Part shown: positions 3,430 to 25,772 of the stretch, piece by piece | Layout: each line of letters begins with the position of its first letter | Numbering within the stretch: the first letter of the stretch is position 1 | Origin: a virus | Virus record (IMG/VR): IMGVR_UViG_3300045747_000487 | Span: 1-46,988 of that record | Strand: one strand, 5' to 3' | DNA length: 46,988 bases | Program-made: the position numbers and the translations under genes | The notes under the pieces: generated by a model | Told to the model about the DNA's origin: nothing | The model's input: only the letters and a program-made list of their open reading frames with translations | Database searches by the model: none

Positions 3430-3611
3430 GATGCCTTCTCCTGCAACGCGAGTTCAGCGGCCATCGACCGCGCACACACCACGGCCAGCTTCGCCGCACT
3501 GTCGGCGAACCACTGTTGGTCCGCCGGGGACATCGTCAGCAGCTGTACGCCCGTGCTGCCGCTGGAGAGAATCGCCCACCACGCGAACGGTATGAGCTCA
3601 GACTGTTCCAT
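3426..3611 (-). CDS. Hypothetical protein, 61 aa
   Basis: The ATG at 3611 was chosen because AAGGAGC stands 6-7 bases upstream; longer in-frame starts would overlap the DUF3310-like gene almost completely. It overlaps the end of that gene by 14 bases and the next gene by 4. The protein reads MEQSELIPFAWWAILSS and then a polar helical part. The function is unknown. Confidence 0.55.
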   Translation of the reverse strand: MEQSELIPFAWWAILSSGSTGVQLLTMSPADQQWFADSAAKLAVVCARSMAAELALQEKAS

Positions 3612-4065
3612 TGAGCGCTCCTTCGGGGCGGGTGCGCAGCGCGTTGTCCACGGCTTCCGCCGTAGTCGTAGCGTCGAGTTGCGCGCGGGCGATGATCGTG
3701 TCCAGCAAGTGACGCGCCCACAAGACATCGTCTGCGTCGCGCGCACGCATCAGCGTGTAGAGAAAGAGTGCGTCCACGCGCTCAACACCGTTGGCGCGCA
3801 CGAACGTTTCGACGTTCGCAGCCAACGCCCGAGGGGCTATGGCGTACGTGGGTGCGGACGCACTCACCGCCTCGTGGTACTTCGTCACGTAGTGGCGCGC
3901 CTTGCGCAGGTCTTCCAACCCGTTCTTCTTGCGCCACCGGGCAACGTACTTCGACGCGCAAGCCACAAGCCACATCGTACCGTACGTGTCCAGCATGAAG
4001 TCCCAGTGCTGGTACCCTGACTTGTAGTGGGTGCCGCCTTCTTGAAAGTCGTTTGCCGTGCTCAT
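3598..4065 (-). CDS. DUF3310-like protein, 155 aa
   Basis: The N-terminal half carries the pattern of the small phage DUF3310 family: HYKSGYQHWDFMLDTYG, then SKYVARWRKKNGLEDLRKARHYVTKYHE (residues 13-65). In phages this domain is often found next to nucleotide metabolism genes, and it is sometimes fused to nucleotide kinases. Its biochemical role is not established. The C-terminal half (residues 75-155) is helical and not recognised. It overlaps the upstream HD-domain gene by ATGA, which places it in the same translational unit as the nucleotide and hypermodification genes. Confidence 0.75.
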   Translation of the reverse strand: MSTANDFQEGGTHYKSGYQHWDFMLDTYGTMWLVACASKYVARWRKKNGLEDLRKARHYVTKYHEAVSASAPTYAIAPRALAANVETFVRANGVERVDALFLYTLMRARDADDVLWARHLLDTIIARAQLDATTTAEAVDNALRTRPEGALNGTV

Positions 4066-4601
4066 GATGCCAGTGCCCTTTCCAAAGTGTCGAGAATGTA
4101 GGTTGCCGTCACAACAGCGCTAGCTGGAGCGGGAGCGTTGATGTTGTTCAGGTACGTGCGCACATACGAGCAGTACACGCGCCCGACGGCGGCGGCGTAG
4201 CGGTTGCCCATGCGCGCTTGCTCTGTACAATAGTACGCACCCTCCAGGCAGTCCGCCAGCTTCAACAGCCACGCTTCCACGGGCGTGAGCGCGGGCAGCG
4301 CTATGTCGTGCCTGCTCAGCTCTTCGGTTTCCGCCGCATCGAAGGCAGCGCCCAGGTTCAGCCTGCGCTTCACCGGCGCGGGCAAGTCTCCCGTCGCCAC
4401 CTCGGCTACGTCGTGGAGAAGGGCACACTGAAGCAGTTCGCTGGACGGCGTACCGGGGCGGTGCAGCTCCAACAGGATCGCCGCCACTCCCCACGAGTGC
4501 GCCGCCACGGACTGCGGAGCGATACGCTCGGTGTGGTAGCGGGCGACGGCTCCGCCCGAGAACAGGAAGTCCGTGCGCAACACGGTTTGTACGGCGCTCA
4601 T
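4062..4601 (-). CDS. HD-domain nucleotide phosphohydrolase (YfbR/5'-nucleotidase-like)
   Basis: The metal-binding HD pattern is clear: H35 in AAHSWGVA, H63-D64 in ALLHDVAEVATGDLP and D117 in LLKLADCLEG. R21 in AVARYH sits where YfbR-type enzymes have an arginine for the substrate phosphate. YfbR removes phosphate from deoxynucleoside monophosphates; phage relatives include dNTP triphosphohydrolases such as DatZ. The gene overlaps the thymidylate-synthase-like gene by 4 bases. I infer that it removes a competing nucleotide, for example dTMP/dTTP or another dNTP, so that the modified nucleotide enters DNA. Its substrate cannot be read from the sequence. Confidence 0.8.
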   Translation of the reverse strand: MSAVQTVLRTDFLFSGGAVARYHTERIAPQSVAAHSWGVAAILLELHRPGTPSSELLQCALLHDVAEVATGDLPAPVKRRLNLGAAFDAAETEELSRHDIALPALTPVEAWLLKLADCLEGAYYCTEQARMGNRYAAAVGRVYCSYVRTYLNNINAPAPASAVVTATYILDTLERALAS

Positions 4602-5752
4602 GAGCCCACCCCGCCGTTGTTGGTTGTGAACAGGGCTTGCTGCTCCTTTTCCTTGCGCGCAGCTACGCGGCGGTCAATCCACTCCTCAGCGGCGGCGCGC
4701 CAGTCCGCAGCGAGGCACTGACGCAGCCACTCGTACGCCACGCTCACGTTGCCTTGCTTGTACTCGAAATGCGCATTCAACAACGGCACCGCCACAGTGA
4801 CCAAGAAGCGGCTGTCCAGGTTTACGTCGTGCGCCCAGTAGCCGTCGAGTGTGTAGCGCGCCACGAGCACTTCGCATTCGCGCAACCACACGGCAAAGTC
4901 TTCGCCCGCATCGAGGAGCGGTACGGGGAACCACTTGCGCCACGTGCGCGTGTAGCAGGGGTCGCCCACCGTGTATCGGGGATCGCCCACCACCCGAGGC
5001 ACCCACGTTTTCGGATCGTCGCTCGGCATCGAGAACAACCGCTGCACATCCGGACGGTCGATGTACATGTGGTAGTTGTTCGACATCTGGTAGTACGTGC
5101 CCACGGCGTACCCGGCGGCTTGTGCGACAAACTCCTGCAGCATGCCCATGTGCACGTAGTTCGCGCCGTACGCACCCCATATGATGTCGTTCGAGCGGTT
5201 ACACACGGTCATGTCCAGCGCCCCGTCCTTCACGGAAAGGTACGCATGAGTGTTACACGGTACGTCCGCGCCGCCCGCCTTCGCCTTCAGCGTGTCGTCC
5301 CACTTGTCGCTGGAGCGCGCCAACCGCATCCCGTTCCACATGCTGATCACAACGCGGCGCGTGGTCGGGTCGCCACGCAGGGCGATGATCGCGCTGGCGA
5401 TCTGATCGAAGCCGAACCAATGGCGCCAGCGCATGCCGTAAGCGCCCCAGAGCGTCTCGCCGTCGTCACTGAACGTCTCGATGTGCTTCGCGTAGCGCGC
5501 GGGGCCAGCGGCGTCGTTCGCGCCAGCGAGCATCCACAAGCCCTCGAACAGGTGGAAGAACGGGTTGGCGTCGCGAAGCGGCGACAGCAACACGCGCTCC
5601 GTGGGCTGTAGGTACTCCGTGATCACGGGACCGTCCGCCACCAACACACGCCCGTTGCGCGACTGCTCGACGCGCCCGTTGCCCTTCAGAAACCACAAGC
5701 CCGACTCCAACGCGTCATTCACGTTGCGGGCTTTGATCGTATGTACTCCCAT
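4598..5752 (-). CDS. Thymidylate synthase-fold enzyme, probable dUMP hydroxymethylase
   Basis: The protein has 384 aa with the thymidylate synthase signatures: RRVVISMWN (about 132-140, phosphate-binding arginines), the catalytic Cys166 in DVPCNTHAYL, NRSNDIIWGAYGANYVHMGML (185-205, with an Asn near 198 where TS reads the uracil) and SNNYHMYID (224-232). TS methylates dUMP. A sister group in phages with hypermodified thymidine instead adds a hydroxymethyl group to give 5-hmdUMP. Sequence alone does not separate the two, but the adjoining kinase and transferase genes favour the hydroxymethylase. RBS AAGGAG precedes the ATG. The C-terminal 30 residues are a charged extension. Confidence 0.85.
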   Translation of the reverse strand: MGVHTIKARNVNDALESGLWFLKGNGRVEQSRNGRVLVADGPVITEYLQPTERVLLSPLRDANPFFHLFEGLWMLAGANDAAGPARYAKHIETFSDDGETLWGAYGMRWRHWFGFDQIASAIIALRGDPTTRRVVISMWNGMRLARSSDKWDDTLKAKAGGADVPCNTHAYLSVKDGALDMTVCNRSNDIIWGAYGANYVHMGMLQEFVAQAAGYAVGTYYQMSNNYHMYIDRPDVQRLFSMPSDDPKTWVPRVVGDPRYTVGDPCYTRTWRKWFPVPLLDAGEDFAVWLRECEVLVARYTLDGYWAHDVNLDSRFLVTVAVPLLNAHFEYKQGNVSVAYEWLRQCLAADWRAAAEEWIDRRVAARKEKEQQALFTTNNGGVGS

Positions 5753-5770
5753 GGTGCTACTCCTTCACGA

Positions 5771-6631
5771 TTAGAACTGCGGTTTGTATGAGCTGCGGGG
5801 CTTACCTTCGCCGCGCAGCACACGTTGATACTTGTCGAACTCACACAGACAGTTTTGTACATCCTGTGCGTGCATGACCTCCCATCCCTTCGGCAACTGC
5901 GTGTTCGTGTATTCGCGAAGCGCCAGCACGCCGTCCAACCACTCCTGCTCCACCCAGGGCGTGCTCACGTCCCGGCCCATTACGCGGTTCAACCCACGCT
6001 TGCTTCCCGGCCCACTAGCGGCGAACGTATCCCAGTCGGGCGCATTCACCAGCAGCGGCGTGTACTTCAAGTCCGCCACCACTTGCGCCGCCAGGAAGCT
6101 TCCCCAACCAGGCATGTTCATCAGCCGCTCGTGGAACGCGCGCAGCGTGTCGTCGCGCCGGGGGCGGAGTGCGTTGCGTTCGCCCCACAACGGATCGAGC
6201 ATCTTGATGCAGGTGTAGAAGGGCTTGTCCATCGCGTCGCTGCGCAGCATGTACGCACCTGTGTAGACCTTCTCGCCGCGCGCCGCCCGGTGCCGCATCT
6301 TCTGCAACGCCTTCAACGAATCCCAACGCTTCGGGAACCCAACCTCCACCAGCGTGTCGGGCCAGTTTATGGCGCGCGCCACCGCTGCCGCAAACCACAG
6401 GTTGGGGTGTGTGCTGTTCGGGTTGTACCACTGCGTGCGCAGCCAGACCGACACGCGGTCCAACTCCCTGTACACATTGCAAAACCTGAAACTGCCTAGG
6501 ATGGGATCGTCTGTCCACACGGGTGCGCCGTCCACTACCCGCACCGGCGTCCCCGCCGCGCGCCGAAGGTATACCGCATGGCGTGCATTCACGAAAGCAA
6601 CGAAGTCCTTGTTAACAAGCGCTGCGCTCAC
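5771..6631 (-). CDS. Helical protein of the 5-hmdU DNA kinase / aGPT-pyrophosphorylase group
   Basis: The start is GTG at 6631 (GTGA overlap with the upstream stop, GGGAG before it); longer starts run into the methyltransferase gene. The 286-aa protein has FRFCNVYRELDRVSVWLR near residues 47-64, a HhH-glycosylase-like stretch MPGWGSFLAAQVVADLKY, then GPGSKRGLNRV and DVQNCLCEFDKYQR near the C-terminus. These are hallmarks of the helical domain found in phage 5-hmdU DNA kinases and in the alpha-glutamyl/putrescinyl thymine pyrophosphorylases, also called amino acid:DNA transferases. It could be the missing helical half of the kinase at 7329 or a second transferase. Confidence 0.75.
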   Translation of the reverse strand: MSAALVNKDFVAFVNARHAVYLRRAAGTPVRVVDGAPVWTDDPILGSFRFCNVYRELDRVSVWLRTQWYNPNSTHPNLWFAAAVARAINWPDTLVEVGFPKRWDSLKALQKMRHRAARGEKVYTGAYMLRSDAMDKPFYTCIKMLDPLWGERNALRPRRDDTLRAFHERLMNMPGWGSFLAAQVVADLKYTPLLVNAPDWDTFAASGPGSKRGLNRVMGRDVSTPWVEQEWLDGVLALREYTNTQLPKGWEVMHAQDVQNCLCEFDKYQRVLRGEGKPRSSYKPQF

Positions 6632-7332
6632 TTCAGCTCCCAGGCGTAGATCAGGCGATCGTAGAACGACTTGAACCGCTCCGCGCCAGACTCCAGTGCA
6701 CGGTCGTACTCGGGTTCGTACCAGATGTTCCTGTACCGCTTCTTGATCGCGTTCAGCCGCCGCCGCAACGCCTTGGTGCTGTCGTCGCGTGACGTGTGGT
6801 ACTCCAGAACTAGCTTGTTGGCGCGCGGCAGGAGCCACTTGTCGAGGATCGCGCCTTCGCTACCCTCGATGTCCATCTTGATACCGTCGAACTCCTTGTC
6901 CATCAACGCGCCAGCCCACACATTCTTGACGGGCGGTTGCGCCACGTACCCGTGCACGGGCAGGATCGTACCGCGTGCGTGGGTGTTGCGGTTGCTCGCG
7001 AAGAAGGTGATTGTAGGCTCGTTCAGGGCGGTCACGGCGGCATTCACCGTGATCATCTTCTGCACATTCTTGCGCAACACCCGGTAGCAGTCCGGGTCGG
7101 GTTCGTAGCACATGGCGGTGGCGCCACGCGAGCGGCAGTACAGTCCGAAGGCTCCGATGTTCGCCCCCAGGTCCAGCCACCGTTCGCCCTTCTCCACGTC
7201 GAAGCCGATGCTGGCGCGGCGGTACGAGCGGCGGGTGATAACTTCCTCCAGGATGCGTTCGTCACCACTGACCTCGTCACCATTGTCGTCACGGTAGTGG
7301 CACGTCAAGCCTTGTATGATCTTTGTCTTCAT
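6628..7332 (-). CDS. FkbM-family SAM-dependent methyltransferase
   Basis: The 234-aa protein has the Rossmann SAM site RWLDLGANIGAFGLYCRSRG (about residues 51-70), an acidic ribose-binding end to strand 2 in AMCYEPDPDCYRVL, and the FkbM-typical GIKMDIEGSEGAIL at about 150-163, where Asp and Glu sit by the active site. FkbM enzymes usually O-methylate sugars or small molecules; they are not the usual DNA base methylases, and no DPPY or PC motif is present. The gene overlaps both neighbours (kinase and helical-domain protein) by 4 bases. From this I infer that it may methylate the group attached to the modified base. A sugar or lipid substrate is the main alternative. Confidence 0.85.
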   Translation of the reverse strand: MKTKIIQGLTCHYRDDNGDEVSGDERILEEVITRRSYRRASIGFDVEKGERWLDLGANIGAFGLYCRSRGATAMCYEPDPDCYRVLRKNVQKMITVNAAVTALNEPTITFFASNRNTHARGTILPVHGYVAQPPVKNVWAGALMDKEFDGIKMDIEGSEGAILDKWLLPRANKLVLEYHTSRDDSTKALRRRLNAIKKRYRNIWYEPEYDRALESGAERFKSFYDRLIYAWELK

Positions 7333-7934
7333 GCCGGTTCCTTGCGGATCGTTATGTTGTACAGACGCATCAGCGCCCGCAGCGGTTGTTCGTGGTCGAT
7401 GATCTCCACGCGTCGTTGCGGCACGCCGCCCTCGCCCAGCACCAACTTAGAGCGCAGGCGTGAGATCGACGCAAACTTGGACTCGATGTTGCGGTTGTTC
7501 GACAGCGGCTCCGCGCCGCGCGCCGCCCGCCTTCGGTTCACGCGGTCTATACACAGCGCCAGCGGCGTGTCCAGGAATGCGAACGCGAAGCGGTTGCCGT
7601 ACGCCTCTGACGCCTTCCCAATCGCGCCGTAGGTGGTGCTTGTGAGCGCGCCTTCGAACAGCACGTGCCAGCCCAGCGCGTCAGCCTCCACAACGCGCGG
7701 CAGTATGTCGGCGAACGGCTGTACAGCGTCGCAGCCGCCGCAGGGCGTGGTGTATGGGCCGACGATGAACAGCTTCGCCTCGGGCAACCGCACGAGGTGG
7801 CCGAGGGGCTTACTCGCGGACGTGGACACGCCCGGCATCGAGTGCACCGGCTCCTGGCCGTACTTGTCCATCACCTTGCGCGCCAGCGTGCTCTTGCCGG
7901 AGCCGTGCGTGCCGTGTAGCTTGACGATGGTCAT
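7329..7934 (-). CDS. P-loop kinase, probable 5-hydroxymethyl-dU DNA kinase
   Basis: Walker A is GTHGSGKST at residues 8-16. Residues near 58-92 (GPYTTPCGGCDAVQPFADILPRVVEADALGWHVLFEG) and a lid-like CIDRVNRRRAARG follow. This arrangement matches the P-loop part of phage 5-hmdU DNA kinases, which phosphorylate the 5-hydroxymethyl group in DNA to make it a leaving group. Characterised kinases carry a helical domain in the same chain. Here the 201-aa protein stops after the P-loop fold and helical-domain proteins are encoded separately. It overlaps both neighbours by 4 bases. Confidence 0.75.
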   Translation of the reverse strand: MTIVKLHGTHGSGKSTLARKVMDKYGQEPVHSMPGVSTSASKPLGHLVRLPEAKLFIVGPYTTPCGGCDAVQPFADILPRVVEADALGWHVLFEGALTSTTYGAIGKASEAYGNRFAFAFLDTPLALCIDRVNRRRAARGAEPLSNNRNIESKFASISRLRSKLVLGEGGVPQRRVEIIDHEQPLRALMRLYNITIRKEPA

Positions 7935-8770
7935 AGTTCCCCCACAACGGTAGCTTCTGGCAGCTTGTTAGCGCGTTGTCCGTGGTTCAGCTCGCGAAAC
8001 GTCACGATCATGAACGGAGAGTAGCTGTTGTTCGTCACCAACGTCAGTGAACGCGCTTTGCGCAACAACACCGCGTAGGAGATTTTGTACAGCTTCTTTG
8101 TCACCCACGAGGGCAACCCGTCGCAGATCGTGTCGATACGCCAAAGCACACTCAGCATACGTTCGTCCGCCGGTTGTTCGCTATCCGCGAACCAAGGCAA
8201 CGCAAACGACATCACGCGCACAAACCTGTCTGCGTCCAACGTCGCATACTTGTAACACCAACCAACACCACGCACGTAGTTGGTAGTGCTTTTGAGCTTT
8301 TGACATACGCGCCAACCGTGGCGTTGAACGGTCGCCTCGACCAACTTAGCCACCGCGTCGCCTTGAAGAAGACGTTGCGCGTAAAGCTCAACGCTCAGCA
8401 CGCGCTTACGCACCGTGTTCAAGTCTATGAACATACGAGAAACCTCAGCCTCGGAATCGGCTTGGTATAGGTCGCACCGCAACTTCTTCACGCCCACTTG
8501 TCGCGCAGCCAACACGCGATGTTGCCCGTCCACCACCAACAACCGCCCGCGATAGACAGCCACTTGGATAGACCCCGCCAAGTCCAACTTCCAATTACGC
8601 GCAATGTTCGCCACGTGCGCTTTGTGCGCGGGGCGTTGCGCGTCGTGATCCGTTATCAACACAGACACGTCTTGTAAGTCTGTGCCGATGAAGCGCGACT
8701 CCGTGGGGTCTTTGAGACCTACGCTTTTGCGCGGGTTGGGTGTTGCGTCAATACTTGTTTGCCTGCTCAT
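7931..8770 (-). CDS. ParB-like N-domain protein, 279 aa
   Basis: The ATG at 8770 overlaps the stop of the FAD gene (ATGA) and lies about 6 bases after GAAGGAG; longer starts would run through that gene in another frame. The ParB-type core is LLVVDGQHRVLAARQVGVKKLRCDLYQ near residues 78-104, with an upstream DLAGSIQVAVYRG strand. A helical C-terminal part (about 110-279) is not recognised. ParB folds bind or hydrolyse nucleotides and appear in phages as nucleases or partners of DNA modification systems. Its place inside the modification cluster suggests a related role, but the activity is unknown. Confidence 0.75.
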   Translation of the reverse strand: MSRQTSIDATPNPRKSVGLKDPTESRFIGTDLQDVSVLITDHDAQRPAHKAHVANIARNWKLDLAGSIQVAVYRGRLLVVDGQHRVLAARQVGVKKLRCDLYQADSEAEVSRMFIDLNTVRKRVLSVELYAQRLLQGDAVAKLVEATVQRHGWRVCQKLKSTTNYVRGVGWCYKYATLDADRFVRVMSFALPWFADSEQPADERMLSVLWRIDTICDGLPSWVTKKLYKISYAVLLRKARSLTLVTNNSYSPFMIVTFRELNHGQRANKLPEATVVGEL

Positions 8771-9585
8771 GTCAGCTCCTTCACGAATTGATATGCTTGC
8801 CAAGCGGCCAATACAGTGCCGTTCTTGGCGCCCCCAGTGGACACCCATACGTTGGGCATGGCTCGGGCGAAGTACCCTGCCTTGTGCCCTGGCACGTATG
8901 GACGCGCACCGACTGTTACGCGCGGCTTGCTCTTCAACCCGAACAACGATGCGCCGCGCGCCACCGTGTCCGCCTGCCTTTGTACAGACTCCTTCTCCCA
9001 CGTGGTGGTGATCAGCGCCGTGCCGTCTCCCATCCAGACCGCGTTGCCCCGCAGTTGGAAGGCGACTGCCTGCCTGTACGGAGCGTACACGTGAATGCGC
9101 GGCTCGGGTAGCGTACCGCTGAACACGGCGGACGCGCCCCAAAGCGCCTTGATAGCCGGCATATGCACGAGGCGGTCTGTCCCGATACCCGCCGCCACGA
9201 GCACCTTGCCCCGGAGCACCTTGCCGCTGTCCGTCACCACCGCGCCGTCCCGAACCTCCACAACCTCCTCGCGTACGTCGGGCGTCACCAGTACGTCCTG
9301 CGGGTCGATGCGCTGGGCGCGGAAGGTCTTGAACAGGTTCGTCTTGAACTCCACATCGTGGACGGCGTACAGCCCCCCGAGCACATCCATGGCCGTGGCG
9401 ATCTGTTCAGACGAAAGGCTGCTCAGCCAGGAAGGCGCTAGAACGCACCCAGATGCCTTGCTCGCGCCGCCGGGTAGGTCGGCGCCCACTACCGTCACGG
9501 AGTGCCCCTGGGCACGCGCTAGGGTGGCTGCTATGCTTCCGAAGAGTCCAGCGCCCACGACTACGACGTTATGCTTGCGTGCCAT
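8767..9585 (-). CDS. FAD-dependent oxidoreductase (DAO-like), candidate flavin lyase of base hypermodification
   Basis: The protein has 272 aa. The dinucleotide-binding motif is VVVVGAGLFGSIAATLARAQGHSVTVV (GxGxxG at residues 11-16), followed by LPGGASKASGCVLAP, a DAO-like flavin contact. A second FAD region is VLRGKVLVAAGIGTDRL, and the C-terminus has NVWVSTGGAKNGTVLAAW, typical of D-amino-acid-oxidase-fold enzymes. In phages such as Pseudomonas M6, flavin-dependent lyases trim the amino acid attached to thymidine, leaving an aminomethyl group. With an apparent transferase gene overlapping upstream by 17 bases, that role is the most likely one here. Confidence 0.8.
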   Translation of the reverse strand: MARKHNVVVVGAGLFGSIAATLARAQGHSVTVVGADLPGGASKASGCVLAPSWLSSLSSEQIATAMDVLGGLYAVHDVEFKTNLFKTFRAQRIDPQDVLVTPDVREEVVEVRDGAVVTDSGKVLRGKVLVAAGIGTDRLVHMPAIKALWGASAVFSGTLPEPRIHVYAPYRQAVAFQLRGNAVWMGDGTALITTTWEKESVQRQADTVARGASLFGLKSKPRVTVGARPYVPGHKAGYFARAMPNVWVSTGGAKNGTVLAAWQAYQFVKELT

Positions 9586-10390
9586 GTGGCAACCCCTTCT
9601 GAAGTTGTTGTGCCAGGTCGCCCCAACCGTCCAGGCCGTGGGCTATCTCGCGGGTGTCCTTCCCCACAGGGTAGTGCCCGTTGCGGTGAGACTTGTACTT
9701 ACACAAAATGGTTTCGACCTCCTGTATATTGACCAACCTGTCGTATGCGGGCGGCGCTTTCGCTCCTTGTCGTTGCCAGTACGACACGAGCACCTCGCAC
9801 GTGTGGCGTAGCTCCAGGTTGCTGATGGGAGTGTTCTTGTCTCCGGTGGCCACGAGCGCCGCGCCTTGTCGCGGGTCTTTGTAGATGCCTAGTTCGCAAT
9901 CTGCGAAGTCCGTGTCATAGCCCAAGACGCGCTCGCTCATGTCTGCGACCTTGAAGGCAATCCAGTCCCCGAAGCCGTAATGCTCCTTGGCGGCGTTGGC
10001 GACGGACTGGAACGTCATGGTGTCTATTGAGCGCGTAGCTATGCCCAACAAGCCCTCCACGGCGTACATGGCGTCGCGTGCACCGTAGCGCTTGCGCAGT
10101 TCTTGTACCCCAGTGATGCTCAGGTCTCCTCTGAAGTGACGGCGTTCCGTACCGCGTGGCCAAGCGCGGTCGTGGTTGGCGGCTGCTTGCTCAAGCAGGT
10201 GCCAGAACGAAGAAGGGTTGCGACACTCGGCAAGGCGAGCGGCAACCCCAAGGTGGTAAAACAGCCAGTAAGCGAGACACAACCGCGCTCCGGTGCCGGC
10301 ATCTAGTCTCGCGTTTCGGAGCGCCACGTACACAGGGTCTAGGTCCTGTGTGCGTAGCAACTCGTCACCGAAGCTATACACTGTGTGCAT
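9569..10390 (-). CDS. aGPT-pyrophosphorylase / amino acid:DNA transferase-like protein
   Basis: The 273-aa protein is mostly helical: DPVYVALRNARL near 18-29, LAYWLFYHLGVAARL, a central KRYGARDAMYAVEGLLG, then DWIAFKVADMSERV, and a diagnostic C-terminal CKYKSHRNGHYPVGKDTREI followed by DGWGDLAQQL. This end is typical of the alpha-glutamyl/putrescinyl thymine pyrophosphorylase group. Members replace the activated phosphate on 5-hmdU in DNA with an amino acid or amine. It is the first gene of the cluster in transcription order. It belongs to the same broad group as the 5771-6631 protein, but the two differ in length and end motifs, so they probably do different steps. Confidence 0.75.
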   Translation of the reverse strand: MHTVYSFGDELLRTQDLDPVYVALRNARLDAGTGARLCLAYWLFYHLGVAARLAECRNPSSFWHLLEQAAANHDRAWPRGTERRHFRGDLSITGVQELRKRYGARDAMYAVEGLLGIATRSIDTMTFQSVANAAKEHYGFGDWIAFKVADMSERVLGYDTDFADCELGIYKDPRQGAALVATGDKNTPISNLELRHTCEVLVSYWQRQGAKAPPAYDRLVNIQEVETILCKYKSHRNGHYPVGKDTREIAHGLDGWGDLAQQLQKGLPHGTQA

Positions 10391-15034: not shown

Positions 15035-16966
15035 CTACGCTCTCCGGTTAAACACGGGCTTGGGTTCGACCAAGTCCTGTAGGTCGGCCCAGTTGGGCCC
15101 ATACTCTCCGTCAGACAACATCGGCACGTCAAACTCCACCGACATCATGACGTCTCGCAACGCAAGCATCTCCGCCTTCAGCGCCTTCTTCGGCACGCTG
15201 ATGTCGATCTCATCATACACCGTCACCAGGAAGCGCCCTTCCTTCCGGGGCATTTCATCGTACCGTATCAGGGCTTCCTTCGTACAGTCCGCAGCGGAAC
15301 CTTGGATGATGTAGTTCAACAGCTTGTACTCGTACGTCATCCACTTGTTGAACTTCTTGCTGAAGCCGGGCGGCTCCGCGAAGTATTCCCGCCCGCCCCA
15401 CGTACGCACAGCTTGCCCTGACTTGCCCCGCCCGACGATGGCCTGTTGGAGGGTCTTCAGCCCTGGCACGGCGGATAGTTGCGCATTGCGTAGCTTCTGA
15501 ATCTCATCCACGGGGCGGTCCAGCTTCCCCGCCATGCTGCCCACGCCTTGTCCATAGATGTACCCGAAGTTCAACGTCTTCACGGGCGTGCGCGGCAGGT
15601 CGATGCCCAGCATGTCGGAGATGGCCTGTCGCACATACTCGTGTACGTCCAGCAGCGGATTATCCCAGTACGCTTCCTGCAACGCGCCGTCTTCAAAGTG
15701 GCCGAGAATGCGCAACTCTTGTTGGTTGAAGTCGCGCCGTCCGAACCAATGTGTGGGCGCGTCCGGGAGCACGTACCGCCGCACCAGCGGCAGGCTAGGC
15801 AACGCGATGCTCGTGGGCATGGACCATCCGTCACCTTTGTCGGAGAAGTCCTTGCTGACGTTCAGGAAGTTTGGGTTGTTCGTGCTCGGGCGTCCTGTGC
15901 GCGTACCGCCGCCGGTATCGCCGGTGTTGCTACCCCTCACTTGGTTCCACGTGGTGTGTATAGTGCCGCCCGTTGCCTGCGCCAGCGCCAACCACTGCTC
16001 CATGAACATCCGCAGGCACGTGGCGGCGCGGTTACGATACCCCAGCATCTGGAACACGCACTCATCCTTGTAGTGCCGCTTCAGGAGGTTTGCCTTGCTG
16101 ACGGAGCGTTGCCCGGTCTTCGTCAGCGTCCACTCCGTCACGATACCGCACTTGTCGAGCGCGTCTCCTACATCCTTGTCGTTGTCCAGCTCCAGGTCGG
16201 GCGTCTTCAGGCGTTTACGCAACCACGTATCGGCGGCTTCTAACCCTTTGCGCACCAGCGGTATGTCGCGCTCCAGGGCAACGGTATCGCACCGCATCCC
16301 TTCGCGCTCGTTGCGCAGGAGGATCGGCATCAGGCGCTTCTCACGCTCGTACGCAGGCAGCATACCGCGCTTCGCAATCTCCACATACAGCTTCTGATAC
16401 AGCAGCTCGGTGCGTGTCGTGTCCCCATTAGCGTACGCCCCCACAAGCTCTCCGGGCGCAAGGCATATCCACTCACCGCTGTTCGCGAGCGTGACGCGCG
16501 AGTTGAGCGGCAACAGCCCGTCCACCTTCAGCTGTTTTTGGTTCGCAACCAACCACTCGCCCACCGCGTCGCGTTCGTCGGGCGGCAGGTCTAGCAGCCG
16601 TGCGGCGGTGGGCTTCAGCCCGAGCTGGCGCTGATGCGGGTCGGACAGGTACACCAGGAACATCGCGTCTTCAATCTCCAGCGCAGGGAGGTCGGGCAGT
16701 CCGAACCACGTCTGTGCGATGTCGTAGTCAAACTTGCCGTTGAAGAACAGCTTGTGAAGCGGTTCTGCCCACGCGTTCGCTAGCGCGTTGCGCGCATCAT
16801 CCACCGTACAGTTGTTGCCCCCGGTGACGTGTCCAAACGCGTAATACCGCCCCACTTTCCAGTTGGGCAGCTTGATGGACACGCCCACGGGGCGCGGCGG
16901 GTAGTGCGGGCGCGAGCGAATCGGCTCTGTTTCAAAGTCGATTGTCACCACGCGCGGCGGCTTCAT
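15035..16966 (-). CDS. Family A DNA polymerase with 3'-5' exonuclease domain, 643 aa
   Basis: The start is ATG at 16966 (ATGA overlap with the MazG-like gene). The exonuclease is complete: IDFETEP (D10, E12), FFNGKFDYD (D80) and YANGDTTRT (Y178, D182). Polymerase motif A is RRDFNQQELRI (D412), motif B RTPVKTLNFGYIYGQG (459-474), motif C TVYDEIDIS (D585, E586). Most family A enzymes read VHDE in motif C; here His is Tyr. There is no 5' nuclease domain, as in T7-type replicases. It is very probably the phage replicase, and it would have to accept hmdUTP and copy a modified template if the pathway works as inferred. Confidence 0.93.
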   Translation of the reverse strand: MKPPRVVTIDFETEPIRSRPHYPPRPVGVSIKLPNWKVGRYYAFGHVTGGNNCTVDDARNALANAWAEPLHKLFFNGKFDYDIAQTWFGLPDLPALEIEDAMFLVYLSDPHQRQLGLKPTAARLLDLPPDERDAVGEWLVANQKQLKVDGLLPLNSRVTLANSGEWICLAPGELVGAYANGDTTRTELLYQKLYVEIAKRGMLPAYEREKRLMPILLRNEREGMRCDTVALERDIPLVRKGLEAADTWLRKRLKTPDLELDNDKDVGDALDKCGIVTEWTLTKTGQRSVSKANLLKRHYKDECVFQMLGYRNRAATCLRMFMEQWLALAQATGGTIHTTWNQVRGSNTGDTGGGTRTGRPSTNNPNFLNVSKDFSDKGDGWSMPTSIALPSLPLVRRYVLPDAPTHWFGRRDFNQQELRILGHFEDGALQEAYWDNPLLDVHEYVRQAISDMLGIDLPRTPVKTLNFGYIYGQGVGSMAGKLDRPVDEIQKLRNAQLSAVPGLKTLQQAIVGRGKSGQAVRTWGGREYFAEPPGFSKKFNKWMTYEYKLLNYIIQGSAADCTKEALIRYDEMPRKEGRFLVTVYDEIDISVPKKALKAEMLALRDVMMSVEFDVPMLSDGEYGPNWADLQDLVEPKPVFNRRA

Positions 16967-17571
16967 GTTCCGCACGCAGGCATAGCCGCCGTCATCACAG
17001 CGTCCTGCTCCAGCTCCGCCATCGACTTCACCAACCCTTCTATGCTGTCCAAGAACCCAACGCACTCAGTGCCCGTACTGTGTATGTCCCCACCGTACAG
17101 CCCAACACGCTCCGACAAGCTGCTGATGACGTTGCCTACGCGCGGGGGTTCGTAGTTCGGACCCCTCATCACCTTCCCGTCCGCGCGCAGAAGCGGCTTC
17201 CCGTCCGCACCCAGCTTGGTCATATTGGCGTGGTGAACTTCCCACACCACGGCGTCGTGTGGTATGCCCAGCGCCAGCGCCGTACCGCACACAACGTAGT
17301 CGATGTCCGCCAACGCATCCGCCGCCGCGATGACGTTGATGTTGGGCAGATCGCTGGCGAGCACGACTTGCATGTTGGCGTAGCCGTTCGGTTGGTGGTG
17401 GCAAACCACACTCACGTTCAATGCGTCGGCCAGCTCGCACAGCTCTTCAAGGATCAACTTCACACGCAGCTCACGCAGCTCCTTGCTGGCGCTGGTTAGC
17501 GGGCGCGTTTCGACGGGGTGTCCGAAGGCTTCGTGAAACTCGCGGACGCGTTGGCTAGTGGTGATACTCAT
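16963..17571 (-). CDS. MazG-like (all-alpha NTP pyrophosphohydrolase) protein, 202 aa
   Basis: The all-alpha NTP-PPase pattern is clear: VREFHEAFGHPVE, then LRVKLILEELCELADAL (residues 36-52, ExxE metal site), then AAADALADIDYVVCGTALALGIPHDAVVWEVHHANMTKL with the second acidic site near 85-92 (ADID). The K-L-DGKPLLRADGKVMRGPNYEPP tail is typical of phage MazG/HisE-like proteins. It converts a (d)NTP to the monophosphate and pyrophosphate. Since the phage also has a dCTP deaminase and a TS-fold enzyme, dUTP is an attractive substrate, but this is inferred. The last 40 residues are an extra helical segment. Confidence 0.85.
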   Translation of the reverse strand: MSITTSQRVREFHEAFGHPVETRPLTSASKELRELRVKLILEELCELADALNVSVVCHHQPNGYANMQVVLASDLPNINVIAAADALADIDYVVCGTALALGIPHDAVVWEVHHANMTKLGADGKPLLRADGKVMRGPNYEPPRVGNVISSLSERVGLYGGDIHSTGTECVGFLDSIEGLVKSMAELEQDAVMTAAMPACGT

Positions 17572-25118: not shown

Positions 25119-25772
25119 TTAGAAGCCACAAGCCAAGCACTTATTTTCGCGCCGCCACCGGCTTGTCTTGCTCGTTATACGCGCCGCGTGCGCCGCCACC
25201 GGCTTGTCTTGCTCGTTATACGCGCCGCGTGCGCCGTAGCTGGCGTGCTCGGGTACGTGTGCGTGTGCGAAGAAGACCACCTGCCCTAGCTTCGTGCCGG
25301 GCGGTATGGTGAGGAAGTGGTGTTGCGTCAGGTTCTTCAGCTCGATCACGAGCGAAGACCCGCGCCACCCCGCCGACAGCCAGTGCGGGTTCAGCGTGGA
25401 CAACCCGCTGCGCGACATCGTGCTGCTGGCGCAGTACGTGGCGCTGAGCCAGGGTGGGAGGTTGAACACTTCGCGGCTCGTCACCAGCGCGAAGTCCCCT
25501 GGCGTGAGTAGCACCGGGTGCTCTGCTGTGACTTTCTTTTCCCGGAACGCGAGCGGATCGCGCGACGCGAGGTTCACCCGGCGGGCGCTCATCGTGGCGG
25601 GCACCTCTTCGTACAGCACCGTGTCGCCGCAGGTAAGGTCGATGCTGGAGGCGTTGATATGCTCGGGGCGTACGCCCTTCGCCACCCCCTGCGCCACCAG
25701 GCGGCACAAATCTTGATACGACAGCACGCCGGGGGCGTAGCCGTGGTTGGTTTGATTCAGACTGTCTATCAC
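25119..25772 (-). CDS. dCTP deaminase (dCTP deaminase/dUTPase fold) with altered C-terminus
   Basis: The 217-aa protein has INASSIDLTCGD (40-50), LLTPGDFALVTSREVFNLPPWLS (88-110), SRSGLS (120-125, the RSSxxRxG-like loop), and AGWRGSSLVIELKNLT (134-149) with the probable catalytic Glu144. LTIPPGTKLGQVVFF and YGARGAYNEQ complete the fold. The enzyme makes dUTP from dCTP, the entry point to dUMP and 5-hmdUMP here. A 41-bp tandem duplication shifts the frame after Ala194: without it the protein would end ARK, but now it carries 23 extra residues (HAARITSKTSRWRRENKCLACGF). Activity may depend on this C-terminal lid. Confidence 0.85.
   Translation of the reverse strand: MIDSLNQTNHGYAPGVLSYQDLCRLVAQGVAKGVRPEHINASSIDLTCGDTVLYEEVPATMSARRVNLASRDPLAFREKKVTAEHPVLLTPGDFALVTSREVFNLPPWLSATYCASSTMSRSGLSTLNPHWLSAGWRGSSLVIELKNLTQHHFLTIPPGTKLGQVVFFAHAHVPEHASYGARGAYNEQDKPVAAHAARITSKTSRWRRENKCLACGF
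25149..25230 (-). repeat. 41-bp tandem duplication causing a frameshift
   Basis: Bases 25149-25189 and 25190-25230 are identical, with gcgccg repeated once more after the second copy. Since 41 is not a multiple of three, the duplication shifts the reading frame of the dCTP deaminase near its end. Perfect identity implies it is recent. Confidence 0.93.

Follow-up and report, generated by a model that had tools for sequence, protein, structure and literature searches.

Which base does a phage make when its thymidine hypermodification genes include a methyltransferase? In known phages 5-hydroxymethyldeoxyuridine (5-hmdU) enters the DNA, is phosphorylated by a 5-hmdU DNA kinase and is then modified by transferases (PMC6449724). 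The question is raised by the IMG/VR virus record IMGVR_UViG_3300045747_000487 of an uncultured phage, whose full 46,988 bases are referred to here as the window. Nine genes stand in a row on the minus strand of the window (3598–10390), in transcription order an amino acid:DNA transferase (ADDT), a flavin adenine dinucleotide (FAD) enzyme, a ParB-like protein, a P-loop kinase, an FkbM-type S-adenosylmethionine (SAM) methyltransferase, the helical protein HMUDK_hel, a thymidylate synthase (TS)-fold enzyme, an HD phosphohydrolase and a DUF3310 protein. We consider it probable that this operon encodes a hypermodification pathway of the glycine/flavin-lyase branch represented by Pseudomonas phage PaMx11, combined with a DNA-directed methyl step that works with HMUDK_hel; this reading is not bound to a single named base. 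Thymidine hypermodification had been proposed in an earlier note drawn from the sequence, and Pfam and PHROG profiles, synteny with PaMx11 and a tree of TS-fold proteins all bear it out. The methyltransferase that the note had listed as an addition to the known pathway scores above its Pfam cut-off (PF05050) and is the real novelty of the operon.

A Methyltransferase Clade Linked to HMUDK_hel

A scan of viral contigs with an alignment of the methyltransferase returned 20 records at 36–56% identity, followed by a gap down to matches at 34% or less, and together with the window these records form one methyltransferase clade of 21 sequences (support 99/96). Viral scans that started from one methyltransferase or ADDT sequence found nothing, and alignments were needed as queries. 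HMUDK_hel was present in all 20 records, and for 19 the fetched stretch already contained it; its gene is usually adjacent to or overlapping that of the methyltransferase. None of the 60 stretches around more distant methyltransferase relatives contained it. The comparison of fetched stretches (19 of 20 close against 0 of 60 distant) gives P = 2e-17, a value made too small by the relatedness of the sequences. The linkage is not circular, because gene context played no part in the scan, which was run on methyltransferase sequence only. When the HMUDK_hel tree was labeled by the presence or absence of the methyltransferase, the label changed 10 times, with at least six changes forced by supported branches, and the partnership has therefore been formed or lost many times. 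Close relatives of the methyltransferase were found neither in genome contigs nor in plasmids, and a second viral scan gave no new close member among the matches listed.

Of the 60 stretches around the more distant FkbM-like phage methyltransferases (L109–L168), 43 contain a ParB-like gene, with Pelagibacter phage HTVC112P and cyanophage MED4-184 as examples; in MED4-184 the FkbM-like gene also adjoins a gene annotated as a queuine tRNA-ribosyltransferase. Unusual arrangements were also seen in three records that carry the methyltransferase. Diverged HMUDK_hel genes flank it on both sides in L104 (4761–8187), a glutamine-amidotransferase-type protein (PF13522, 3e-8) lies beside the ADDT, methyltransferase and HMUDK_hel in L106 (4172–4948), and three kinase-like (HMUDK) open frames share the short contig L093 (2–1017, 2541–3164) with it.

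Clade Members Without a Detected Kinase or Transferase

Clade records such as L098, L089, L091, L101 and G081 resemble the window in the methyltransferase, HMUDK_hel and, mostly, a TS-fold hydroxymethylase, but unlike the window most have neither an ADDT nor a 5-hmdU kinase. Among the 20 records an ADDT was present in six (Pfam), a kinase in five (Pfam and a 15-row profile agree) and a flavin lyase in two. Three contigs, namely the window, L098 and L107, combine the ADDT and flavin lyase with the methyltransferase. Twelve records with about seven distinct methyltransferases combine the TS-fold enzyme, HMUDK_hel and the methyltransferase, and neither an ADDT nor a 5-hmdU kinase was detected in these 12 with Pfam and purpose-built profiles. 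The intervening genes scanned in L091 and L104 gave no transferase or kinase match, and the TS-fold proteins of the kinase-less records retain the hydroxymethylase residues. Most clade records are fragments. G081, however, spans 67,368 bases and carries an identical stretch of 123 bases at both ends, and when the ends are joined the HMUDK_hel reading frame is restored; because this terminal repeat closes the gene we regard G081 as a complete genome, and no ADDT or 5-hmdU kinase was detectable in it.

Structure Models of HMUDK_hel and the Methyltransferase

The model of HMUDK_hel (predicted local distance difference test, pLDDT, 90.5) has the PaMx11 glycinyltransferase gp46 complex 8z2n as its best structural neighbor (Z 11.5, root mean square deviation 4.1, 223 aligned), followed by base-flipping DNA glycosylases at Z of about 8–11, middling values of a kind that helical proteins easily reach. 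No solved structure was matched when HMUDK_hel was searched by sequence profile. From the fold we infer that HMUDK_hel may present a flipped base to a partner enzyme, which would be the methyltransferase in this clade and the kinase in most phages. For the methyltransferase, a model with pLDDT 91 shows a class I methyltransferase fold, and its neighbors are fibrillarin-type RNA 2′-O-methyltransferases and many other class I enzymes (Z about 12–13.5). Its invariant residues include H179 and D225, together with D54 and G56 at the SAM site.

The Core Genes Resemble Those of PaMx11

The tree of TS-fold proteins placed the window protein with the SPO1 dUMP hydroxymethylase gp29 and the proteins of M6, PaMx11 and a ViI-like phage, split from E. 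coli ThyA, phi3T and a T4-type td enzyme (support 98/97), although long branches leave the branching within the hydroxymethylase group uncertain. Its residues are also those of hydroxymethylases, with no W80, a D-x-PCN motif around the catalytic cysteine and a retained N177, so the substrate should be dUMP. The protein is thus predicted to be a dUMP hydroxymethylase, and an ordinary thymidylate synthase was rejected on the basis of this grouping. The tree had been put forward in the earlier note as a check, as had profile searches, and these matched the Thymidylat_synt, HMUDK, ADDT and DAO families; nothing at the sequence level contradicted the proposed hypermodification.

The first protein to be transcribed, described in the note as aGPT-like, is close to that description and was identified as an ADDT (PF18724). 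It matches the solved structures 25qc (2e-54) and 8z2m, titled ‘Glycinyltransferase’ (2e-45), and has the columns that are invariant over 14 aligned ADDTs; the title of 8z2n names the 5-PmdU glycinyltransferase gp46 of PaMx11. Directly after it, with a 17-base overlap, comes a flavin lyase of the gp47 type that matches 8z2o/8z79 (‘Flavin-dependent lyase’, 4.5e-40), conserves the motifs GxGxxG, WAPY-Q and GG-K and has the columns invariant over 12 flavin lyases. These matches to solved enzymes of PaMx11 make 5-aminomethyl-deoxyuridine (5-aminomethyl-dU) the expected core product, and glycine would be the attached amino acid, judging from an identity of about 40%. PaMx11 gp46 and gp47 reportedly make N-alpha-glycinyl-T and then 5-aminomethyl-dU, products with which the structure titles agree. 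The P-loop protein of the window aligns with M6 and PaMx11 proteins annotated as terminase small subunit.

Genes gp46–gp53 of PaMx11 (Mesyanzhinovviridae) comprise an ADDT, flavin lyase, P-loop kinase, HMUDK_hel, TS-fold protein, HD protein and DUF3310-like protein in the same order as in the window, at 35–44% identity between core proteins. They differ at two places: the gene between lyase and kinase encodes a GNAT acetyltransferase in PaMx11 and the ParB-like protein in the window, and only the window has a methyltransferase, placed between kinase and HMUDK_hel. This shared order, with variants in dozens of IMG/VR contigs, shows that the operon is not a chance grouping. The HD gene occupies the position of PaMx11 gp52 and M6 gp59. 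Pseudomonas phage M6, whose DNA carries 5-(2-aminoethyl)-deoxyuridine (5-NedU), shares the ADDT, P-loop kinase, HMUDK_hel, hydroxymethylase and HD protein, but it has no methyltransferase and, instead of a flavin lyase, has genes annotated as threonine dehydratase and DNA repair photolyase, which we take to be tailoring enzymes of the pyridoxal phosphate (PLP) and radical SAM types. No GNAT acetyltransferase, PLP or radical SAM family was matched among the nine genes of the window operon (Pfam, PHROG). The lack of radical SAM and PLP enzymes that the earlier note had stressed is therefore real but not novel by itself, since PaMx11 lacks both and relies on a flavin enzyme.

Proposed Pathway and Methyl Acceptor

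In the pathway we propose, the TS-fold hydroxymethylase would convert dUMP to 5-hmdUMP, 5-hmdU would be incorporated into DNA, and the P-loop kinase would phosphorylate it there together with HMUDK_hel. The ADDT would then attach an amino acid, which homology suggests is glycine, and trimming by the flavin lyase would leave 5-aminomethyl-dU. The FkbM-type methyltransferase would add a methyl group, with HMUDK_hel as its base-presenting DNA partner. We infer all chemistry of the methyl step, and the base itself, from gene content and homology.

As acceptor we tentatively place the hydroxyl of 5-hmdU ahead of other targets, with 5-methoxymethyl-dU as the product at a share of sites; this is the parsimonious acceptor because most clade members have only 5-hmdU available. 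A broader suggestion, made with a little less confidence, is that these methyltransferases use HMUDK_hel in place of the kinase. Phages without kinase and transferase would then hydroxymethylate, flip and O-methylate to give 5-methoxymethyl-dU, and in the window this route would run alongside the glycine/flavin route, so that the DNA would contain either two modified thymidines or a methylaminomethyl base.

For the window and L098 the next candidate is a methyltransferase that acts last, on the amine of 5-aminomethyl-dU, and yields 5-methylaminomethyl-dU, the DNA counterpart of 5-methylaminomethyluridine (mnm5U) in tRNA. We think this less likely, since the flavin lyase is found in only two of the 20 clade records and the ADDT in six, and most members cannot have the substrate. 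FkbM-type enzymes are, moreover, mostly O-methyltransferases. The co-occurrence of the ADDT, flavin lyase and methyltransferase in three contigs nevertheless speaks for it, as does the slot between kinase and HMUDK_hel, which is held by a GNAT in L010 and L012 and by the methyltransferase in L098. There is also a precedent in MnmC, which acts on 5-carboxymethylaminomethyluridine (cmnm5U) in tRNA with a flavin-dependent removal of the carboxymethyl part to give 5-aminomethyluridine (nm5U), followed by SAM methylation to mnm5U (PMC9626948). The window would follow the same order of reactions if the amine were the target, whereas the substrate of MnmC is tRNA, the window methyltransferase is FkbM-type by Pfam and is likened to MnmC by reaction order, and its glycine would arrive by a different enzyme. 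Less likely again is a methyltransferase that acts elsewhere (on the carboxylate of the glycinyl intermediate, another base or a protein) and leaves the DNA with 5-aminomethyl-dU. The wider FkbM-like phage family does occur without a thymidine pathway and is frequently accompanied by ParB-like genes (43 of 60 stretches), but this explanation does not account for the tie of the close clade to HMUDK_hel in 20 of 20 records. That the genes serve ordinary nucleotide metabolism, with a thymidylate synthase and kinases and no DNA hypermodification, is scarcely credible. Thymidylate synthase and terminase small subunit are the annotations given to relatives of the TS-fold and P-loop proteins, but the TS-fold protein groups with hydroxymethylases, and no role in thymidylate synthesis is known for the ADDT, the flavin lyase or HMUDK_hel.

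Several points weigh against our preferred combination of the PaMx11-type pathway with a HMUDK_hel-guided methyl step. No isolate phage has this methyltransferase clade, the best phage matches being about 32%, and the proposed base is a prediction from genes, for this phage as for its close relatives. The window kinase is barely above the PF18748 cut-off (Table 1), and a kinase is present in the window, L089, L090, L093 and L098, where it may consume 5-hmdU first. The role of HMUDK_hel as base presenter is deduced from a similarity of folds, for which Foldseek alone gives E-values of 0.75 or worse, and the fold search with the methyltransferase does not separate O- from N-acceptors, the acceptor atom not being readable from sequence.

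Thymidine hypermodification is reportedly tailored by radical SAM, PLP, flavin and acetyltransferase enzymes. The kind of pathway found here is known and the class of tailoring enzyme is apparently new. No report of a methyltransferase as tailoring enzyme, or of a kinase-less module of hydroxymethylase, HMUDK_hel and methyltransferase, was found in the literature searched, which did not include the main papers, so that an earlier mention is possible. The final base of the operon may be new, as the earlier note had suggested, and this phage DNA probably holds a methylated thymidine derivative not yet known in nature. A methyltransferase that has joined such clusters again and again extends the tailoring enzymes by one class and points to natural DNA bases that are new. 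In the complete genome G081 it stands where kinase and transferase are missing, uncoupling HMUDK_hel from the kinase and suggesting a general base-presenting partner. Bases of this kind bear on how phages escape restriction and on the enzymatic labeling of DNA, and since the proteins are small and a methyl-transfer assay on 5-hmdU DNA is simple, the idea is directly testable.

Tailoring Sets Across ADDT Loci

We surveyed 80 IMG/VR ADDT loci listed from a viral scan, the true number being at least 80. PLP plus radical SAM enzymes formed the tailoring set in 24 of the listed loci, an FAD enzyme alone in 23 and an FAD enzyme with a GNAT in 14. L010 and L012 have a core of the window type with the GNAT in the slot that the methyltransferase has in the window, and the L010 ADDT is the full-length ADDT most similar to that of the window among those listed (50%). 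The PF05050 profile gave no FkbM match over 70 ADDT-bearing records. A methyltransferase unique to the window was rejected as an explanation when the methyltransferase scan found L089, L090 and L098 with both genes; the order in L098 (ADDT, FAD enzyme, kinase, methyltransferase, HMUDK_hel) is that of the window without the ParB-like gene.

About 10 ADDT loci carry an amidoligase-like and phosphatase-like gene pair between flavin lyase and kinase. In L024 (6675–7619 and 7567–8073) these match PF12224 (amidoligase-like, 5e-4, below cut-off) and PF01451 (low-molecular-weight-phosphatase-like, 9e-14), and similar pairs occur in, for example, L028, L029, L041, L046, L066, L069, L071 and L079. A further tailoring step by amide ligation is possible.

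Operon Layout and Accessory Genes

All genes listed in the earlier note are confirmed as open reading frames of the minus strand at its coordinates, but 4062–10390 contains eight genes rather than seven, and the DUF3310 gene, overlapping the last of them, extends the operon by a ninth (Table 1). The compact layout with mostly 4-base overlaps holds, with overlaps at seven of the eight junctions and six of these at −4 (in order −17, −4, −4, −4, −4, +18, −4, −4). The sole gap is the 18 bases between HMUDK_hel and the TS-fold gene.

Table 1. Genes of the operon and two genes elsewhere in the window, with their supporting matches.
Feature	Position	Strand	Evidence
ADDT amino acid:DNA transferase (PF18724), first operon gene	9569..10390	-	Pfam 4.2e-23; relative of PaMx11 gp46
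FAD/DAO-family flavin-dependent lyase (predicted)	8767..9585	-	PF01266 1.4e-12; relative of PaMx11 gp47
ParB/DndB-like protein	7931..8770	-	PHROG 1033 ParB-like 7e-10; PF20188 1e-4, below cut-off
P-loop 5-hmdU DNA kinase (HMUDK)	7329..7934	-	PF18748 2e-6, 27.9 bits vs cut-off 27
FkbM-type SAM methyltransferase	6628..7332	-	PF05050 5e-7, 30.4 bits vs cut-off 22.7
HMUDK_hel helical protein, DNA-glycosylase-like fold (putative base-flipping partner)	5771..6631	-	PF18723 4.5e-43
TS-fold protein, predicted dUMP hydroxymethylase	4598..5752	-	PF00303 Thymidylat_synt 8.5e-19; PHROG 5131 thymidylate synthase 7e-99
HD phosphohydrolase, YfbR-like 5′-deoxynucleotidase	4062..4601	-	PF12917 1.4e-10
DUF3310 protein, last operon gene	3598..4065	-	PF11753 8e-8
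dCTP deaminase, outside operon	25119..25772	-	PHROG 1663 5e-34
MazG-like nucleotide pyrophosphohydrolase, outside operon	16963..17571	-	PHROG 671 4e-35

Family assignment (Pfam, PHROG) is weakest for the ParB-like protein, which has no counterpart in other ADDT loci by phmmer, and is clear for the other operon genes. The DUF3310 gene recurs in many related loci, and an 11-pair terminator-like stem lies downstream of it (3125–3098). HMUDK_hel starts with GTG, a 355-amino-acid frame for this protein being over-extended. The two genes outside the operon are likely nucleotide-pool helpers of the pathway, with dUTP supply a plausible role for the dCTP deaminase and nucleotide-pool control a plausible one for the MazG-like enzyme. 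Elsewhere in the window, a small open reading frame (619–897) ends in a run of AAKD repeats.

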